Of a DNA stretch of 21,600 nucleotides, positions 3,732 to 19,468 are shown piece after piece (within the stretch, counting starts at the first letter, position 1; each line of letters starts with the position of its first letter). A program made the translations under genes and the position numbers. The DNA comes from a virus: the IMG/VR virus record IMGVR_UViG_3300037189_014977, positions 1-21,600 of that record. One strand, 5' to 3'. The notes beneath the pieces are model-generated. The model ran no database searches, was not told the origin of the DNA, and saw only the letters and a program-made list of their open reading frames with translations.

Positions 3732-4243
3732 TGGCGCTCCTCCGTACAGCCGCGACGGTCGTCAATGCCGCAGGAACCGAGCTTGCGTACAAGACCGCGA
3801 GCGTGGATACCTCGCTCGTCTATGGAAGCGGCATCGAAGGCGCCACCGTTCAGACTCCGGTGGTCAATGCCACAAACGCCGACGCCCTCGCGGCCTACCT
3901 CGCGAATACCACCGACGCGACCTCGCCACTTGTGACGATCACACTCGATAACGACACCGACGCCCGCCTCGCGGTTATCCGCGACCTCGACCTGAATCAG
4001 CGGGTAAGCGCGACCGAGAGCATCACCGGCGCGACGCTGGACGGGTTCGTCGAGCAGATAACGCACAAGATCACAAACGGAGGCCTCCTCCACGAGTGCT
4101 CCCTGAAGGTGTCGGCCCGTACTCGGATGGTCGGCGTCTATTCCCCAGGGACCGACCCCGCGGGCGCGACCGTTTACGCGCTCTCGGCCTACACCGCGGC
4201 GAGCCCGACCGAGCCGCCGCCATACGCGACATACGGGTTCTAA
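3731..4243 (+). CDS. Minor tail protein, C-terminal part (split partner)
   Basis: A 170-residue beta-rich protein. Segments such as NADALAAYLANTTD, VTITLDN, DLDLNQRVSATESI and DGFVEQITHKIT resemble the C-terminal half of hub-type minor tail proteins, where a vector-addition-like line is followed by a groove that reports the line width and a 'GxVxxIxHxI' strand. Its ATG overlaps the upstream stop as TAATG, so it would be made by termination-reinitiation and probably assembles with the product of 2829-3731. A fusion by -1 frameshifting is the alternative. The C-terminus ends in a Pro/Tyr-rich tail. The next gene begins 15 nt downstream with its own strong ribosome site. The tail assignment rests on position and pattern. 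Confidence 0.7.
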   Translation: MALLRTAATVVNAAGTELAYKTASVDTSLVYGSGIEGATVQTPVVNATNADALAAYLANTTDATSPLVTITLDNDTDARLAVIRDLDLNQRVSATESITGATLDGFVEQITHKITNGGLLHECSLKVSARTRMVGVYSPGTDPAGATVYALSAYTAASPTEPPPYATYGF

Positions 4244-4258
4244 GGAGGCCCGCACCCT

Positions 4259-4918
4259 ATGGCATGGACTAACCCCACGACGCGAAGCGCAGGAGACGCG
4301 ATCCTCGCAAGCGATCAGAACATTTGGGTAAACAACTTTCGCATGGGGCAGCCCGTGTTTACGAACGAGGCCGCGCGCGACGCCGCGCTGACCTCGCTCG
4401 AGGAGGGGATGACCGCCTACCTGACCGCATCTTCTGAAACTACGGCAGACGGCGGTGGAAAGGCAATCCCAACCGGTATAACAACTGTCTATAACGGCAC
4501 CGGATGGGTGTGCATTACCCCTGTGAGTGCGTGGACCGACACCGTGGGAACAACCGTTAGCCTTTCCTACGGAACCCTTACCGGCGGGGGAACTAACCCT
4601 TATGTTGAGTTGCGTACCGGCGCGCAGGCACTTGTGCAGTTCTCCATGAACTCGTCACTAAGCGCCGGACCCCATCAGACCGCAGCGGGTATTGCGGTGA
4701 GCGGCGCCACAACCCGCGCAGTTGGAGCGACTAACAATAACTCATACGCTCTGTATTCTGGCGCGGGCGCGGGGTACAACGGTATCAACTGCGCCTGCTT
4801 CACCTTCACGGACCTCACCCCAGGAATCAATAGGTTCACGCTGAACTATGCAACGTCCAACGCGGCCGTTACTGCATCATTTTTTACGCGCCGCATTATC
4901 GCGCAGGGCATCGCATGA
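4259..4918 (+). CDS. Tail fibre / minor tail protein
   Basis: A 219-residue protein opening with AWTNPTTRSAGDAILASDQN, the usual start of actinophage tail or head-fibre proteins, followed by a short helical segment with EGMTAYLTA and VYNGTGWVCI and then a Ser/Thr/Asn/Gly-rich beta domain suited to binding a cell-surface receptor. The start is clear: AAGGAGG at 4242-4248 lies 10 nt before the ATG. From about 4430 onwards the DNA is visibly richer in A and T, with codons such as aat, tat, gtt and act that are rare in neighbouring genes, which suggests the binding domain was exchanged from another source. The last four bases (ATGA) overlap the next gene. Confidence 0.8.
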   Translation: MAWTNPTTRSAGDAILASDQNIWVNNFRMGQPVFTNEAARDAALTSLEEGMTAYLTASSETTADGGGKAIPTGITTVYNGTGWVCITPVSAWTDTVGTTVSLSYGTLTGGGTNPYVELRTGAQALVQFSMNSSLSAGPHQTAAGIAVSGATTRAVGATNNNSYALYSGAGAGYNGINCACFTFTDLTPGINRFTLNYATSNAAVTASFFTRRIIAQGIA

Positions 4919-7770: not shown

Positions 7771-7992
7771 ATGACTACGGGACGCCCGCAGGGAATACCC
7801 CCCCCCCCTGATTCCTCGTCGGGTGGTGCGGACGCTCTCGCGGCCGTAATCCGAACCCGAGAGCAGGCCGCCCAGGTATGGGCCGCCGGGCAGGAACGCG
7901 CCGACACCTACGACGTGCGCGCCGAGTATGAGCAGGACCACCGCCGGGCCGCCGACCTTCGTCGCGCGGCCCTTTTACTTCGCGGGCTTTAG
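7771..7992 (+). CDS. Small helical protein with C11 tract, unknown function
   Basis: A 73-residue protein not recognised from any family: MTTGRPQGI, a Pro run, a Ser/Gly linker, then a charged helix (LAAVIRTREQAAQVWAAGQ and YEQDHRRAADLRRAALL). Three features support it: the promoter placed right at its ATG, coding-like third-base GC, and its convergent end, which shares bases with the stop of the repressor gene (TAG 7990-7992 against the repressor's stop at 7989-7991). Codons 10-13 consist of 11 consecutive C bases, so slippage would switch it off early. I chose the ATG at 7771 over in-frame starts further upstream because those lie in the promoter. A role in modulating the repressor is only suggested by location. 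Confidence 0.55.
   Translation: MTTGRPQGIPPPPDSSSGGADALAAVIRTREQAAQVWAAGQERADTYDVRAEYEQDHRRAADLRRAALLLRGL
7798..7808 (+). repeat. C11 mononucleotide tract
   Basis: Eleven C residues in a row encode the Pro run of the 7771-7992 gene. Tracts of this length are prone to replication slippage, and any change other than a multiple of three would shift the frame after codon 9. Confidence 0.9.
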
Positions 7993-8393: not shown

Positions 8394-8534
8394 ATGAGGC
8401 GGAGGGGAATCACTCCAGGCGGGGCGCTTATGGTCGTCGTGGCCGCGAGCTTCCTCGTCTTTTGTGCGGCGACCCGGTGGGGGCTTGATCTCTATGGGCC
8501 GTGGCTCGCTCACGCTTTGGGTTTCTCGAAGTGA
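8394..8534 (+). CDS. Small one-TM membrane protein
   Basis: A 46-residue protein, MRRRGITPGG, then a hydrophobic helix (ALMVVVAASFLVFCAA), then an aromatic, amphipathic end (RWGLDLYGPWLAHALGFSK). The start has a purine-rich upstream region and lies just after the candidate early promoter. Its stop overlaps the next GTG (GTGA). As the first gene expressed from the early promoter it could act at the membrane, for example in superinfection exclusion, but this is speculation. Confidence 0.6.
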   Translation: MRRRGITPGGALMVVVAASFLVFCAATRWGLDLYGPWLAHALGFSK

Positions 8535-11324: not shown

Positions 11325-12321
11325 CCTCGACACCATGCCCGAGACGTGCCGCGACCGTTATCAGGTCGAGCCCGTCGCGGATGATCCAAGTGCTCGCGGC
11401 GGTATGCCGCAGGTCGTACGGCACGCCGGAGAGGCCGAGGCCGCCGGTCCCATCGTCGCCGGGCGGCGCGGTCACGACCGGATGCCATACGCGCTTGGTC
11501 CAGATTCCCCAGGCGAGGAACTCACCGCGCGCGGGGCGTGCGATCACGTCGGCAACGGTCGCGCCCTCGGGGACATTCGCGCGGAGGACGGCCTCAAGGT
11601 CGTCGTCCACGGGAACCGTGCGCGAGTGGAGGCCCTTCGTCGTCTTGACGCGCCCATCCTGCACCGAGCGTTCGACGTGGATCACGCCGTCGGCGATATC
11701 CATCCATCGGAGCGCGACGATTTCGGCAGGCCGCAGGCCCGCGTAGGCACCGAGGGCGACGATCATCCGGTCGCGACCCTCGGGCATGGCCGCGATCATC
11801 TCGCGCACCGTCTCCGGATGGAACGCCCGGCGCTCGGTCGGGAGCTGCGGCATTTTGCCGAGGCGAAAGCAGGGGTTCGCAGGAATGAGCCCCTCGTCCA
11901 CGGCCGCCGAGAGGGCGCTACTAAGTGCCCGCAGGACGTTATTCGTATTCGTCGGCGGCGAACCGGCGCGGACAATCTCGGCGCGGTACTCCTTCACGCG
12001 AGCCCGGCCGAGCTCGCGGAGCGGCACGTCGCCGATGAACGGGAGCACCCATTTATCCAGCAGGGGCGCCCGACGCTTCAGCGTGGAGAGTTCCCAGGTC
12101 GGCCCGGTGGTCGTAATCCACGAGGCGAGGAAATCCTCGAGCGTGCGTTCCGAGGGCTCGCCGGGCGCGTGGGCGCCCATGCGTTTACGCCGACCCGTCT
12201 CGGCCTCAAAGGCTTGCGCCTCCCGCTTTGTGGGGAACGCGCGGGAACGGTTTTTCGTTCCCTCTCTATACCGGACGACGTACGAGACGCCGTTCGCGTG
12301 GTGCTTCTTATGAATGGACAT
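11167..12321 (-). CDS. int: Tyrosine-family integrase
   Basis: A 384-residue site-specific recombinase. It has an N-terminal arm-binding domain (residues 1-50, HHANGVSYVVRYREGTK), a SAM-like core-binding domain (about 60-160), then the catalytic domain with Arg197 (YAGLRPAEI), Lys226 or Lys229 (RVKTTKGLHSRTVPV), the box II sequence YDLRH (Arg305, with Tyr302 where the first His is common), His329 (LGHG) and the nucleophile Tyr338 (AHYAHLF). It faces a tRNA-like attP core about 115 bp upstream of its start. The catalytic Tyr codon (11308-11310) lies inside the antisense overlap with the excisionase-like gene. A perfect hairpin ends directly at the ATG. This protein would integrate the phage into a host tRNA-Gly gene. 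Confidence 0.93.
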   Translation of the reverse strand: MSIHKKHHANGVSYVVRYREGTKNRSRAFPTKREAQAFEAETGRRKRMGAHAPGEPSERTLEDFLASWITTTGPTWELSTLKRRAPLLDKWVLPFIGDVPLRELGRARVKEYRAEIVRAGSPPTNTNNVLRALSSALSAAVDEGLIPANPCFRLGKMPQLPTERRAFHPETVREMIAAMPEGRDRMIVALGAYAGLRPAEIVALRWMDIADGVIHVERSVQDGRVKTTKGLHSRTVPVDDDLEAVLRANVPEGATVADVIARPARGEFLAWGIWTKRVWHPVVTAPPGDDGTGGLGLSGVPYDLRHTAASTWIIRDGLDLITVAARLGHGVEVTLAHYAHLFERSRQRSARASRPAPAGRALPGEPREVPAGGPRDVLDTGSRS

Positions 12322-13433: not shown

Positions 13434-13642
13434 TGGCGCTCCGGAACGTGGTCCTAATGACCGACGCCGAGCGGGAGCAGCGCCGCGAGGACGACGAGGC
13501 CGCGTTCCACGCGGTCCACGCCTTTATCGCCGACGGCGAAACCCGCTCGCGAGCGATTACCGCCGCGGCCCGTTCGATGAAGCTCAAGCGCGAGGACGTA
13601 ATCGCGGGCTATTGGCGTCACGTCCGCAGGGAGGGCCGGTGA
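13433..13642 (+). CDS. Small charged helical protein, unknown
   Basis: A 69-residue protein, rich in Arg and Glu (AEREQRREDDEAAFHAVHAF, ITAAARSMKLKREDVIAGYW). GTG 13433 overlaps the preceding stop as TAGTG; ATG 13457 (MTDAERE) is an alternative. The stop overlaps the methyltransferase start (GTGA). No family was recognised. Confidence 0.55.
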   Translation: MALRNVVLMTDAEREQRREDDEAAFHAVHAFIADGETRSRAITAAARSMKLKREDVIAGYWRHVRREGR

Positions 13643-14484
13643 GTGGCCTCCTCTGCGGATCGCTCTTTTCCGGAGTCGGCGGAATGGACCTCGGGTTCGC
13701 GTGGGCCGGATGGCGTCACGCCTTCTTTGCCGAAATCGAACCCTTTGGCCGAGCAGTTCTGGCCGAGCGGTTCCCCGGCGTCCCCATATACGAGGACGTC
13801 CGAGACGTCCCCGAGTGCGAGCGCGGCGAGTGGGATCGCCTTGACGTGCTCACCTTCGGGAGCCCCTGTCAGGACCTCTCCGTCGCCGGAAAGCGGCGAG
13901 GACTTGACGGCGACCGCTCCGGCCTCTTTTGGGAGGCGATGCGAATCGCCGGAAATGGGCCTCTTCGACCTCGAGCTCTACTCATGGAAAACGTGGAAGG
14001 GCTCTTGTCAAGCAATCGTGGACGGGACTTCGCCGTCGTCTTGGACGCGATGGCCGAGCGCGGGTATCGGTGGAGCTTCCGAGTTCTTGACTCGCAGCAC
14101 TTCCAGGTGCCCCAGCGGCGCGTCCGAGTGTTCGTGCTCGCCATCGCTGACGACGATCCTCGAGCCGAACGCATCGCCGAGGTACTCGCTCTCGGCGAAA
14201 GCAGCCGCAGGGATTCTCCGACGAGCAACCCGTCGTGGCCGCTCACTTCCTCCGGCGCTGGATCAGGCGCTCCGGGCGGTGGCGGAGCAGGTGACGCCGT
14301 GACCGTAGAGAGAGAGAGAGAGAGAGTCGTTCCCGCCGTCACGAGCAAGTGGGCGAAGGGAAGCGGGGGCCCTGCCGGGGACGAGTGCCAGAACCTCGTG
14401 CTCGCCGCCGAGTGGTCGGGGCGATCACCGCGCAATACGGAGAACAAGCGGGGCAGGACCTCGCGTATGGGGGTGGACTCGTGA
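13639..14484 (+). CDS. C5-cytosine DNA methyltransferase, N-terminal part (motifs I-VIII)
   Basis: A 281-residue protein that transfers a methyl group from S-adenosylmethionine to C5 of cytosine. Visible motifs: I, LFSGVGGMDLGF (9-20); IV, GSPCQDLSVAGK (74-85) with catalytic Cys77; VI, MENVEG (116-121); VIII, QHFQVPQRRVRVF (153-165). A low-complexity region with an (AG)10 tract (encoding ERERER) follows, then TSKWAKGSGGPAGDECQNLV, a normal part of phage relatives. Motifs IX and X are missing from this frame and occur in the next one. The break fits a -1 shift at GGGG (14418-14421). GTG 13639 overlaps the upstream stop. Alone this part lacks the AdoMet-completing motif X; see 14481-14936. Confidence 0.88.
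   Translation: MSGLLCGSLFSGVGGMDLGFAWAGWRHAFFAEIEPFGRAVLAERFPGVPIYEDVRDVPECERGEWDRLDVLTFGSPCQDLSVAGKRRGLDGDRSGLFWEAMRIAGNGPLRPRALLMENVEGLLSSNRGRDFAVVLDAMAERGYRWSFRVLDSQHFQVPQRRVRVFVLAIADDDPRAERIAEVLALGESSRRDSPTSNPSWPLTSSGAGSGAPGGGGAGDAVTVERERERVVPAVTSKWAKGSGGPAGDECQNLVLAAEWSGRSPRNTENKRGRTSRMGVDS
13955..14302 (+). CDS. Overprinted ORF inside the cytosine methyltransferase
   Basis: A 115-residue frame (ATG 13955) read +1 relative to the methyltransferase. It gives MGLFDLELYSWKTWKGSC, SWTRWPSAGI and then PRYSLSAKAAAGILRRATRR and GRSLPPALDQALRAVA. I recognise the YSLSAKAAAGILRRAxxRG and WPxSGM/I patterns from small phage proteins often annotated near cytosine methyltransferases. The methyltransferase frame over the same bases also keeps motifs VI and VIII, so both frames look constrained. 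No strong ribosome site precedes the ATG, and the frame is open upstream to 13643. It may be a true overlapping gene or a family created by mis-annotation of the methyltransferase. Confidence 0.4.
   Translation: MGLFDLELYSWKTWKGSCQAIVDGTSPSSWTRWPSAGIGGASEFLTRSTSRCPSGASECSCSPSLTTILEPNASPRYSLSAKAAAGILRRATRRGRSLPPALDQALRAVAEQVTP
14307..14326 (+). repeat. (AG)10 microsatellite in the methyltransferase gene
   Basis: Ten AG units in the inter-motif region. Both the frame used upstream and the frame of motifs IX-X are open across the tract, so loss of one unit would fuse the two halves into one frame, while other changes truncate. This is the usual form of a contingency tract. Confidence 0.9.
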
Positions 14485-14936
14485 CAAGTGACGACGAGCC
14501 GACCGTCGCGGTCTATCGCAAGAGCGCGCGCGTAAGCGGCCCAGATACACCGGAAACGTGGGTGGACGATGGAGTCGCGAACACGCTACATAGCTTTGAC
14601 GTCGGCGACGTAAGGACGACTCACGCGATCGTCAAGGCGACGGCGATCGGTTTTTCGCATACGCAAGGGCTGGACCCTCAAGCTCAAGAAGGGCGCACGC
14701 CGACACTTCGCAAGAACGGTGGCGGCATGGCGGCGGGCGTCGGCGCAACGGTTCGACGCCTGACGCCGATGGAGTGCGAGCGCCTTCAGGGTTGGCCCGA
14801 CGGGTGGACCGATATCCCGTGGCGCGGAAAGGATCACGCGCCGGACTCCAAGAGGTACGCCGCAGCCGGAAACGGCGTTACCGCGCCGGTCGCCTATTGG
14901 ATCGCCGCCCGGCTCGCGGAGGTGCTCGGTGACTAG
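14481..14936 (+). CDS. C5-cytosine methyltransferase, C-terminal part (motifs IX-X)
   Basis: A 151-residue frame with motif IX, RRLTPMECERLQGWPDGW (92-109), and motif X, GNGVTAPVAYWIAARL (130-145). These complete the fold begun in 13639-14484. The GTG at 14481 overlaps the stop of the first part (GTGA), the same coupling used between genuine genes here, so two separate subunits could be made, as in the split enzyme M.AquI. The frame is open upstream to 14295, and residues GAITAQYGEQAGQDLAYGGG before the GTG belong naturally to the single-chain enzyme, so a recent frameshift, a sequencing error at GGGG or programmed -1 shifting are alternatives. Confidence 0.8.
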   Translation: MTSDDEPTVAVYRKSARVSGPDTPETWVDDGVANTLHSFDVGDVRTTHAIVKATAIGFSHTQGLDPQAQEGRTPTLRKNGGGMAAGVGATVRRLTPMECERLQGWPDGWTDIPWRGKDHAPDSKRYAAAGNGVTAPVAYWIAARLAEVLGD

Positions 14937-16809: not shown

Positions 16810-17561
16810 AGGTGACGGCCCTTCTCTCATGGTTTGACGAACGCCCCGAGGACCTTCGGCGCGCGGTTCGTTCTCACGCGGCCTCGGGCGCGGTGGATTC
16901 GCTTATCGCGCTGGACGGACGCTATGCCCTATTCGGCAACGGCCCGTGCGTATCGCCGGACGAGCAGCACGACGCCATCCGCGACGCCTGCCGCGAGTAC
17001 GGCGTCGGGTTCACCATCGCCCGGCGGGAGGACCCGTGGGCCGGTGAGGTCGAAAAGCGCGGATACCTCTTTCGTATGGCGCTTGCCCAGGTGACGCCGG
17101 AGGCCGATTGGCTTTGGATCGTGGACGCGGACAACGAGCTCCGCGAGCACCCCGGCGCCGACCGTATCCGGGCTGAACTCATGGGCACCGATTGCCACGC
17201 GGTCGCGGTCACGTTCGCCGAGCCCGGTCGCCTGATTGACGAGACGCGGCGGCCCATGCGGCAGATATTCCGCGCGCTCCCCGGCCTCACGACCTACGGG
17301 CGGCATTGGTACTACGCGGCGAAGGTCGCCGGGTCGTGGGCCTACCTATGGGGACCGGGAGAGGTCCAGGTGCCCGCGCACGAGTTCCCCGAGGTCGTGG
17401 TCCGCCACCACTCACGCGACCGCGACCCGGTTCGCCGGGAGAACGCGCTCGCCTACTACGCAGCGCGCGACGCCCGAGGCGTCGAGGTATCGCCGTCTTG
17501 GTTTATGCAGGACGAGTGGGGCGCGCTCGCGGCCGTGGATAACGAAGGAGAGCTCGCATGA
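16806..17561 (+). CDS. GT-A fold glycosyltransferase
   Basis: A 251-residue protein of family 2-like fold. It opens with KVTALLSWFDERPEDLRRAV, has LIALDGRYALF, WAGEVEKRGYLFRMA and the metal/sugar-nucleotide DxD site in WLWIVDADNE (107-110). A long C-terminal region holds Trp, His and Tyr residues for acceptor binding. It could glycosylate modified phage DNA, a virion protein or host surface; placement between ssb and methyltransferase genes makes DNA or nucleotide modification worth considering. Starts by GTGA overlap; the ATGA end is shared with the methyltransferase. Confidence 0.75.
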   Translation: MKVTALLSWFDERPEDLRRAVRSHAASGAVDSLIALDGRYALFGNGPCVSPDEQHDAIRDACREYGVGFTIARREDPWAGEVEKRGYLFRMALAQVTPEADWLWIVDADNELREHPGADRIRAELMGTDCHAVAVTFAEPGRLIDETRRPMRQIFRALPGLTTYGRHWYYAAKVAGSWAYLWGPGEVQVPAHEFPEVVVRHHSRDRDPVRRENALAYYAARDARGVEVSPSWFMQDEWGALAAVDNEGELA

Positions 17562-19468
17562 GGTCGCCATACCTCAACGACGGCGACGTACGCCTCTACC
17601 TCGGCGACTGCATCGCGGTCATGGCCGAGATGGACGCCGAGAGTGTGGACGCGGTGGTTTGTGATCCGCCCTACGGAATCGGGTTTATGGGCAAGGCGTG
17701 GGACGCCGCGGCGATCACCGAGCGGGTGGAGCGCGACAACGCGAGCCGCGCGAGCCTCGGGCCGGATTCACCGTCACGCCCAGGGCGAAAGAAGCCGCGG
17801 AGCTCGTCGGCCTACGGCAACCGCGCGATTGCCGCAGGGCCCGTTAGGGATCACACCCTCACGCGCGCGCGGTCGGGTTCGATGCACGCGGGCGAGTACG
17901 ACCTATCGCTCACGGCAAACGCCGCGTTCGCCGCGTGGTGCGAAACGTGGGCGCGGGAAGCCTTGCGGGTACTGAAGCCCGGCGGGCACCTGCTCGCGTT
18001 CGGCGGCACGCGCACGTTCCACCGGCTCACCTGCGGGATTGAGGACGCCGGTTTTGAGGTGCGCGACTGTCTCTCGTGGCTGTACGGGTCGGGGTTCCCT
18101 AAGTCGCTGGACGTGAGTAAGGCGATAGACCGGGCGGCGGGGGCCGAGCGGGAAGTGGTGGGAAACTATACGCGAGGGTTCCGGGCGGAGGGTTCGGGGC
18201 TTGATGGGTGGCAGCGTGAGGCCTATTCGATTGCAGGAGCGATCACCGCCCCCGCCACCGACGCCGCCCGCGAGTGGCAGGGATGGGGCACGGCTCTCAA
18301 GCCGGGATACGAGCCCGCCGTCGTCGCCCGCAAGCCGCACACCCCGCAAAGCGAACTCGCGGCGGAGGCCGCGCGAACAAAGGAGGAACTATGCGCGGTC
18401 GTTTCGTACGCCGCGACGGTTACGTCGTGGTTCGAGTGGCTCCGAGCGAGTGGGCTCTCGAGCATCGCGTCGTCGCTTCTCGGATGCTTGGACGACCTCT
18501 CGGAACGCGCGAGCATGTGCACCACCGAAACGGCGTCAAGTTTGACAACCGACCTAGCAACCTTGAGGTTTTGCCTATCGGAGACCACTCGCGCCTGCAT
18601 CACAAAGGCCCCGACCCCTCCGCATGGATCGAGCTCCGGTGCGAGTGCTGCGGAGGCGCTTTCTCGAAGCGTGCTAGTCAAGTGCGAAAGACTGTCCGCC
18701 ACTATTGCGGGCGAGCTTGCTATCGCGCTGCCTGCGGCGCCGGGGCAAACCCAGGCGTCCGCCCTTGCTAGCGCCGGTCCCGCGTGGGAACCGTGCGTCG
18801 TGGCGCGTAAGCCGCTCACCGGGACCGTGGCCGAGAACGTGCAGCAGCACGGCACGGGGGCGCTGAACATTGACGGGTGCCGGATTGGCACCGCAGAAAC
18901 GCTAGGGCGCACTAATAACTGGCGCGAGCATTACGCGCCGTCGTCGTACACGGTCGCGCCTGACTCCCGCATCACCTTTGACCGCAGCGACGTAGCGGGC
19001 GGCCGCTGGCCCGCAAACGTCGCCTTCGACGAGGAAGCCGCCGCGATGCTGGACGCGCAAAGTGGGGAGCGCCCGAGCGGCGCGCGTGCCGGTGGAGAAT
19101 ATGGAGGCATCGGCGCGGGCGCGCTCTACGGTCACGGCGGAACTGCGACGCTTTCCGCGATTGACGCGAACACCGGCGGCGCGTCGCGCTTCTTTTACAC
19201 CGCGAAGGCAAGCCGCGCCGACCGCTCTACGAACGGCGCGAACAACACTCACCCGACCGTGAAGCCCACCGACCTCATGCGGTGGCTGGTGAGGCTCGTG
19301 ACCCCGCCCGGTGGCGTGGTGCTGGACCCATTCGCCGGGAGCGGTTCGACACTCGTCGCCGCGCGCGCGGAGGGGTTCCGGTCAATCGGCATCGAACGGG
19401 AGGAGGAGTACGCCGAGATCATCGCCGCGCGCCTCTCGCAGCTCTCTCTATTCTCGGAGGCGTCGTGA
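17558..19468 (+). CDS. DNA adenine/cytosine-N4 methyltransferase carrying an in-frame insertion
   Basis: A 636-residue class beta-type aminomethyltransferase: catalytic motif IV DPPYGIGFM (36-44) comes first, then CxxWAREALRVLKPGG, and at the end the AdoMet site LDPFAGSGST (589-598) and IGIEREEEY. HPTVKPTDLMRWLV precedes it. Residues about 262-409 do not belong to the family; that DNA encodes an HNH endonuclease in another frame. The family sequence 'EPxVVARKPxT' occurs on both sides of it (18311-18343 and 18788-18820), 477 nt (159 codons) apart, so the reading frame survives. The enzyme may still fold, with a 150-residue loop, or may be inactive. It would protect phage DNA from restriction. 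ATGA start overlap. Confidence 0.85.
   Translation: MRSPYLNDGDVRLYLGDCIAVMAEMDAESVDAVVCDPPYGIGFMGKAWDAAAITERVERDNASRASLGPDSPSRPGRKKPRSSSAYGNRAIAAGPVRDHTLTRARSGSMHAGEYDLSLTANAAFAAWCETWAREALRVLKPGGHLLAFGGTRTFHRLTCGIEDAGFEVRDCLSWLYGSGFPKSLDVSKAIDRAAGAEREVVGNYTRGFRAEGSGLDGWQREAYSIAGAITAPATDAAREWQGWGTALKPGYEPAVVARKPHTPQSELAAEAARTKEELCAVVSYAATVTSWFEWLRASGLSSIASSLLGCLDDLSERASMCTTETASSLTTDLATLRFCLSETTRACITKAPTPPHGSSSGASAAEALSRSVLVKCERLSATIAGELAIALPAAPGQTQASALASAGPAWEPCVVARKPLTGTVAENVQQHGTGALNIDGCRIGTAETLGRTNNWREHYAPSSYTVAPDSRITFDRSDVAGGRWPANVAFDEEAAAMLDAQSGERPSGARAGGEYGGIGAGALYGHGGTATLSAIDANTGGASRFFYTAKASRADRSTNGANNTHPTVKPTDLMRWLVRLVTPPGGVVLDPFAGSGSTLVAARAEGFRSIGIEREEEYAEIIAARLSQLSLFSEAS
18311..18343 (+). 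repeat. Diverged flanking duplication around the HNH gene, left copy
   Basis: This 33-nt segment (gag ccc gcc gtc gtc gcc ...) encodes EPAVVARKPHT. It pairs with 18788-18820, which encodes EPCVVARKPLT. 25 of 33 bases match, and most differences are silent, so the protein is conserved more than the DNA. Confidence 0.7.
18391..18771 (+). CDS. HNH homing-type endonuclease nested in the methyltransferase gene
   Basis: A 126-residue protein in a frame different from the methyltransferase. It has RRDGYVVVRVAP, EHRVVASRMLGRPL, the HNH core EHVHHRNGVKFDNRPSNLE (His44/His45, Asn53) and DHSRLHH, then a four-Cys zinc ribbon (C84xxC87, C106xxxC110). This is the HNH_3 type common in phage mobile endonucleases. 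AAAGGAGG (18379-18386) precedes the ATG at 4 nt, the best ribosome site nearby, so it is translated independently. The insert leaves too little extra sequence for a group I intron. Its role would be cutting HNH-less alleles and spreading by repair. Confidence 0.85.
   Translation: MRGRFVRRDGYVVVRVAPSEWALEHRVVASRMLGRPLGTREHVHHRNGVKFDNRPSNLEVLPIGDHSRLHHKGPDPSAWIELRCECCGGAFSKRASQVRKTVRHYCGRACYRAACGAGANPGVRPC
18788..18820 (+). repeat. Diverged flanking duplication around the HNH gene, right copy
   Basis: Right partner of 18311-18343. It joins directly to LTGTVAENVQQHGTGALNID, the normal continuation of phage methyltransferases of this type, so this copy looks like the original sequence. Confidence 0.7.

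Follow-up and report, generated by a model that had tools for sequence, protein, structure and literature searches.

Repeat tracts and frame-displaced modules in a phage C5-cytosine methyltransferase gene suggest a contingency locus

Main finding

A phage gene for a C5-cytosine methyltransferase that carries several modules, encountered in split form in a metagenomic virus record, is probably a repeat-driven contingency gene, a reading that rests on comparison of its sequence with those of relatives and that draws support from the position of a slippery dinucleotide tract and from modules conserved as protein in frames that exclude one another. Repeat-driven switching of methyltransferases is well known in bacterial pathogens; our search of the open-access literature yielded no phage whose own C5 methyltransferase was described as using repeat-driven frame choice, and no account of modules maintained in alternative frames.

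The split gene

The window, by which we mean the whole stretch of DNA analysed, is a linear IMG/VR virus record of 21.6 kb with 68% GC. A first frame, from GTG at 13639 to a stop at 14482-14484, encodes motifs I (FSGVGG), IV (PCQ), VI (ENV) and VIII (QRRVR), and a second, open from 14295 to 14936, encodes motifs IX (RRLTPMECERLQGWP) and X (GNGV). Pfam family PF00145 matches the first part (E 2e-43, profile positions 4-166) and the second (E 6.5e-7, profile positions 253-322). A preliminary sequence-only reading had proposed this division of motifs I-VIII and IX-X between two frames, together with an (AG)10 tract at 14307-14326, the open second frame and a start codon overlapping the first stop; each of these was reproduced at the same coordinates, the tract being exact, uninterrupted and the only dinucleotide tract of at least six units in the window. 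Conservation of all six motifs identifies the product as a C5-cytosine DNA methyltransferase, which in profile comparison matches M.HhaI (7e-50), and the predicted model of a relative, L006, matches both M.HaeIII and M.HhaI.

Translation of the first ORF would begin within a GTGA overlapping the stop of the previous gene, where a strong ribosome site is predicted (-11.6 kcal/mol). At its end, the GTGA at 14481-14484 overlaps a GTG start with the TGA stop. This GTG is preceded by a Shine-Dalgarno-like GGGGGTG (14469-14475) with a 5-base spacer (-9.7 kcal/mol), a ribosome-like site within the top 2.5% of all NTG in the window and comparable to those of real starts. A tRNA search found none. The features of the locus are given below; the names M1 to M7 were coined in this analysis for short modules lying between motifs VIII and IX.

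13639-14484, plus strand: first ORF as sampled, with the C5 core and module M1 (PF00145, motifs, ribosome site)
About 13666, 13864, 13987 and 14113, plus strand: core motifs I, IV, VI and VIII, respectively (motif calls)
14295-14936, plus strand: whole open stretch of the second frame; another tract state would join M2, M5, M7 and motifs IX-X to the core (frame analysis)
14307-14326, plus strand: (AG)10 tract, the proposed switch, with no stop in any of the three frames (homologous tracts in L003-L006)
14326-14400, plus strand: module M1, VVPAVTSKWAKGSGGPAGDECQNLV, which the sampled state places in the N-terminal frame (conservation; in-frame homologues)
14401-14412, plus strand: M1/M2 boundary, where the native frame shifts by +2 (same offset in L005, L006 and L114)
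14409-14483, plus strand: module M2, RVVGAITAQYGEQAGQDLAYGGGLV, sharing its frame with motifs IX-X and including GGGG at 14418-14421 (conservation, relatives)
14469-14484, plus strand: possible restart, GGGGGTG with a 5-base spacer and GTG over the stop TGA (predicted, -9.7 kcal/mol)
14514-14633, plus strand: module M5, YRKSARVSGP...VGDVRTTHAIV (conservation)
14649-14744, plus strand: module M7, GFSHTQGLDPQ...GGGMAAGVG (conservation)
14751-14936, plus strand: motifs IX and X, C-terminal part of the core (PF00145 E 6.5e-7, motifs)

Two further observations concern other parts of the window. A C11 run (7798-7808), possibly a second contingency tract, lies in the 5' part of a small ORF (about 7771-7992) that adjoins an HTH repressor gene in convergent orientation; the contig of L005 (G003) shows the same arrangement at 8421, with C11 followed by TGATTCC, and in that of L012 (G005) a 12-base run at 11695 adjoins an HTH gene. 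Separately, an N6/N4 methyltransferase gene (17558-19468) contains an insert of about 450 bp (18339-18784) that is absent from the contig of L003; within the insert an HNH_3 endonuclease is encoded in another frame (18388-18768), the frame of the methyltransferase remains open throughout, and the flanks are partly repeated (YEPAVVARKP and WEPCVVARKP).

An array of modules in more than one frame

The region between motifs VIII and IX consists of an array of short modules, which the sequence-only reading had missed. The window has M1, M2, M5 and M7, and its relatives have more. M1 stands in the N-terminal frame and M2, M5 and M7 stand together with motifs IX-X in another, while the modules of L003-L006 are spread over two or three frames. 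Modules of these kinds are read in frame in methyltransferases that other phages encode as one intact ORF (L043, L060, L007, L034 and L035), including an in-frame homologue of M1 in L035 (E 1e-9), which argues that the off-frame stretches are real coding modules. In L004 and L006, where M1 and M2 were out of frame as sampled, differences between the two genes at codon positions 1, 2 and 3 of each module's own frame numbered 1, 1 and 10 for M1 and 0, 0 and 11 for M2, so that 21 of the 23 pooled differences fall at third positions (p 1e-8 against an even spread). Such a bias might also have arisen if the off-frame modules had lost their frame only a short time ago.

M1 and M2 always lie in different frames, and both are kept as protein; one uninterrupted translation can thus read at most one of them correctly. 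Their joint conservation is the strongest argument for regular switching over decay. A role for the modules in setting the target sequence is suggested by their position between motifs VIII and IX, where several candidate recognition units are found, as in multispecific enzymes. AlphaFold models of the natural full-length L006 and of the intact L043, made to gauge tolerance of off-frame filler and built from shallow alignments of 16 sequences, gave a well-modelled core and a module region of pLDDT below 50 in both. A short-peptide search with M1 of phage and plasmid records returned no match, the query probably being too short for such databases, and pattern scans for a tract combined with a module returned only contigs already known. 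Recognition-module-like inserts, out of frame, are also present in L003 (about 4190-4408), L026 (about 4208-4393; for example, FVKSHRAASKDDSDKWIESETSPTLNQMDLAHTGNPNTLV) and L027 (about 4268-4570), in each case at an identical position within the core, between motifs II/III and IV.

The site of the frame change

The two halves had initially been joined at GGGG (14418-14421), by adding one G or by a -1 slip of the ribosome, with a sequencing error at that run as the main rival. Comparison with relatives disposes of all three proposals. The run lies inside M2, which is unbroken in its own frame: the window reads cga gtg gtc ggg gcg atc (RVVGAI) across it and L004 reads cga gtg gtc ggg acc ctc (RVVGTL), the counterparts in L005 and L114 are RVAGTLT and RRVVGALS, and the relatives give no sign of a missing base at this place. 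The own-frame peptides of M2 are RVVGAITAQYGEQ in the window, RVVGTLTATYGEQ in L004, RVAGTLTATYGEQ in L005 and L006, and RRVVGALSARGYT in L114. The frame changes instead at the module boundary, at about 14401-14412, so that an error at GGGG would explain nothing, and the intact M2 of the relatives rules out a missing G or a -1 slip there. The window, L005, L006 and L114 share a +2 offset at this boundary (it is +1 in L004), and its recurrence in four genes from four metagenomes makes neither a lost G nor slippage at GGGG necessary.

The constancy of this offset could be taken to favor programmed ribosomal frameshifting near the M1/M2 boundary, by which a full-length protein would be made from the sequence as it is. 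We consider this extremely improbable, given that the genes show no slippery sequence in common at the boundary, that the window has no Rfam match to a known RNA element or frameshift signal, that L004 has a different offset, and that differences among the tracts would be left unexplained.

Tracts and states among relatives

The first tract occupies a homologous site in all five genes examined here (the window and L003-L006), and its unit and length differ: (AG)10 in the window, (AC)9 in L003 and L004, and (AG)8 in L005 and L006. The four relatives each have another tract, namely (GA)7 in L003, (GA)14 in L004, (AG)13 in L005 and (AG)6 in L006. A differing repeat unit at a shared site implies that a slippery repeat, rather than a protein sequence, is what is kept. 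The first tract is therefore not fixed at ten units among relatives, nor is the second constant between the close relatives L005 and L006, and these differences lend support to the original suggestion of a methyltransferase locus that could take several states, the AG tract being its likely switch. The alignment of L005 with L006 spans 838 bp and contains 61 substitutions; its one indel is a difference of seven AG units in the second tract. As sampled, L005 is truncated and L006 is full length. Related phages (about 91% identical or less) thus differ in tract length with an effect on the product, and the tract itself is uninterrupted, lies in the coding region and sets the downstream frame by its length.

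Downstream of the first tract, each of the five genes has one frame, and no more than one, that runs open to motifs IX-X. Two (L004 and L006) were sampled in that frame, and the window, L003 and L005 were not; random slippage predicts that about one third would be in the on state, with which such a count would be compatible, five genes being few. The inconstancy of these states also bears on the alternative of a fixed two-subunit enzyme of the M.AquI kind, permanently split and with both parts made through the GTGA overlap. That overlap has good ribosome-like sites in the window and in L003, and weaker ones in L005 and L114. However, L004 and L006 are single open frames, the split points differ among the others, an overlapping NTG is common by chance where a TGA stop meets a -1 partner frame, and a fixed split accounts neither for the tracts nor for the separate frames of M1 and M2; we judge it quite improbable. 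As a separate observation, the contigs of L003 (7234-7547) and L004 (5128-5441), from phages otherwise diverged, share 314 bp at 97% identity adjoining the methyltransferase gene, which points to recent exchange beside the locus.

Survey of phage C5 methyltransferases

The association of tracts with broken genes extends beyond this group. We surveyed 141 C5 methyltransferase genes from phages and prophages, forming 110 clusters at 95% identity, and scored a tract as a dinucleotide repeat of at least six units or a G or C run of at least eight; a gene was called broken if its halves, located by tblastn matches of two end queries, fell outside one ORF, a measure that is approximate for distant genes. 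Tracts were present in 10 of 13 broken clusters and in 3 of 97 intact ones (Fisher p 1.6e-9), L004 and L006 accounting for two of the three. The broken clusters lacking a tract at these thresholds are L026, L157 and L161, the last of which has (AG)5. Dinucleotide tracts of at least six units numbered 12 in the 198 kb of surveyed genes as against 1 in the 767 kb around them; a first-order Markov simulation expects about 1.3 per 100 kb, so that the in-gene count by itself is a several-fold excess, concentrated in few genes. Frame changes lie at or near the tract in L033 (G10) and in L036, L114, L143 and L159 (each G9). Runs of G9-G10 were seen in C5 methyltransferases of other phages (L009, L033, L036, L143, L146 and L159), several with a frame change at or near the run, and these genes probably undergo simple on/off phase variation. 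Ten other annotated phage records had no tract in the methyltransferase gene.

One example comes from a cultured phage. In Curvibacter phage PCA1 (OP588919.1; L189), a C9 run (1921-1929) lies exactly at the frame change of a C5 methyltransferase, which is annotated there as two genes, a hypothetical protein and a separate methyltransferase. The phage was cultured and sequenced with Illumina, and the paper describing it makes no mention of the methyltransferase (PMC9763317). Metagenome assembly is therefore not the general cause of such splits. Error of sequencing or assembly, whether at GGGG, in the AG tract or through chimeric joining of strains, has in its favor that the contigs of the window and of its near relatives come from metagenomes. 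Against it are the location of the junction away from GGGG, the same +2 offset in contigs from four metagenomes, the lack of stray indels outside the tract between L005 and L006, and the similar split in the cultured phage, even though a 9-base run is itself somewhat error-prone; overall we think it very improbable as an explanation of the split.

Decay of a dispensable gene, in which relaxed selection would have let repeats and frameshifts build up as damage and high GC would account for the open alternative frames, deserves more weight, and is in our estimation still unlikely. Alternative open frames are common at about 66-70% GC, and some frames of intact genes are also stop-poor; module order and content vary, and the module-like inserts of L003, L026 and L027 are out of frame even within the core. 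Yet every catalytic motif is intact, the off-frame modules retain third-position bias in their own frames, the tract persists at one site despite a changing unit, two of the five genes are full length, and tract and break coincide over 110 clusters.

Discussion

The reading we prefer is that of a contingency gene, in which slippage of (AG)n after motif VIII during replication would shift the frame used to translate the module array; the part of (AG)n would be played in relatives by (AC)n, G8-G10 or C9, often with a second tract further on. In the sampled state, (AG)10, M1 would be read and translation would stop at 14484, leaving either an inactive product or, if translation restarted at GTG 14481, a two-part enzyme that contains M1 and not M2. 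This two-polypeptide state is plausible in view of the good ribosome site predicted at the GTGA. In a second state M1 would be translated as filler, followed by M2, M5, M7 and motifs IX-X as one chain, and a third would end early, at a stop at 14491. Some combinations of tract states in L003, L004 and L005 give full-length chains that include M1. No single tract state links M1 to motifs IX-X in one chain in the window or in L006, so that use of M1 there requires either the two-part model or loss of M1.

Because the tract states differ in product, a population should hold on and off forms as well as forms of different composition. Tract length should then, on the evidence of the array, choose which modules are read correctly, beyond whether the halves are fused or split. 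Varied forms would produce varied methylation of phage and host DNA, and hence varied protection against restriction; the switching would be of the on/off kind, and of specificity also if the modules set the target sequence. The sequences themselves show the tract, the frames, the intact motifs, the differences in tract and state among relatives and the conservation of off-frame modules in their own frames; from these we infer that the tract slips in vivo, that each form is active, that modules set the target and that the phage benefits against restriction. More tentatively, and with somewhat less than even confidence, we propose a frame-coded module selector: at least two recognition modules would occupy mutually exclusive frames, and one or two dinucleotide tracts would by their length determine which module is read, which serves as filler, and whether one, two or no chains result, such that one gene would encode a repertoire of specificities for the population. 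If this is true, phages hedge the protection of their DNA against host restriction much as pathogens hedge their surface antigens. The system would then be concealed by any gene caller that divides such genes or labels them broken.

Several known systems share parts of this arrangement. In M.AquI and other natural two-subunit C5 methyltransferases, motifs I-VIII and IX-X lie on separate overlapping ORFs, as they do in the window, and the split is fixed; here relatives are split or unsplit and the split point moves, so that the gene is not of that type. Frameshifts in a repeat tract also control the DNA methyltransferases of phase-variable Type III mod genes and Type IIG enzymes (for example, Campylobacter Cj0031; PMC4889913), but these are bacterial adenine methyltransferases turned on or off, with no choice of modules. 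The C5 methyltransferases of the Bacillus phages SPR, SP-beta, phi3T, rho11 and H2 are multispecific (as cited in PMC8936443). They resemble the present gene in having a phage C5 core with several tandem recognition units between motifs VIII and IX. To our knowledge, enzymes of that type have stable single frames that lack both a repeat tract and alternative-frame modules. In Helicobacter canadensis, C-terminal sequences are switched by a tract late in the gene that leads the frame into alternative protein sequence (PMC2823697); this case differs in involving homopolymer tracts and bacterial genes, and no modular phage enzyme with conserved alternatives in mid-gene. Neisseria gonorrhoeae has in its NgoAV Type I system a poly-G tract that toggles HsdS between a truncated and a fused form, the two having different targets (PMC9577141). 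Like that locus, the phage gene contains a repeat tract and would yield truncated and fused products, with different targets if its modules determine specificity. In NgoAV the tract acts on a separate HsdS subunit of a bacterial Type I system, whereas the phage gene encodes a one-chain C5 methyltransferase with several modules and frames and with AG or AC tracts. Being a C5 enzyme and not an HsdS protein, it may work like NgoAV while standing outside that family.
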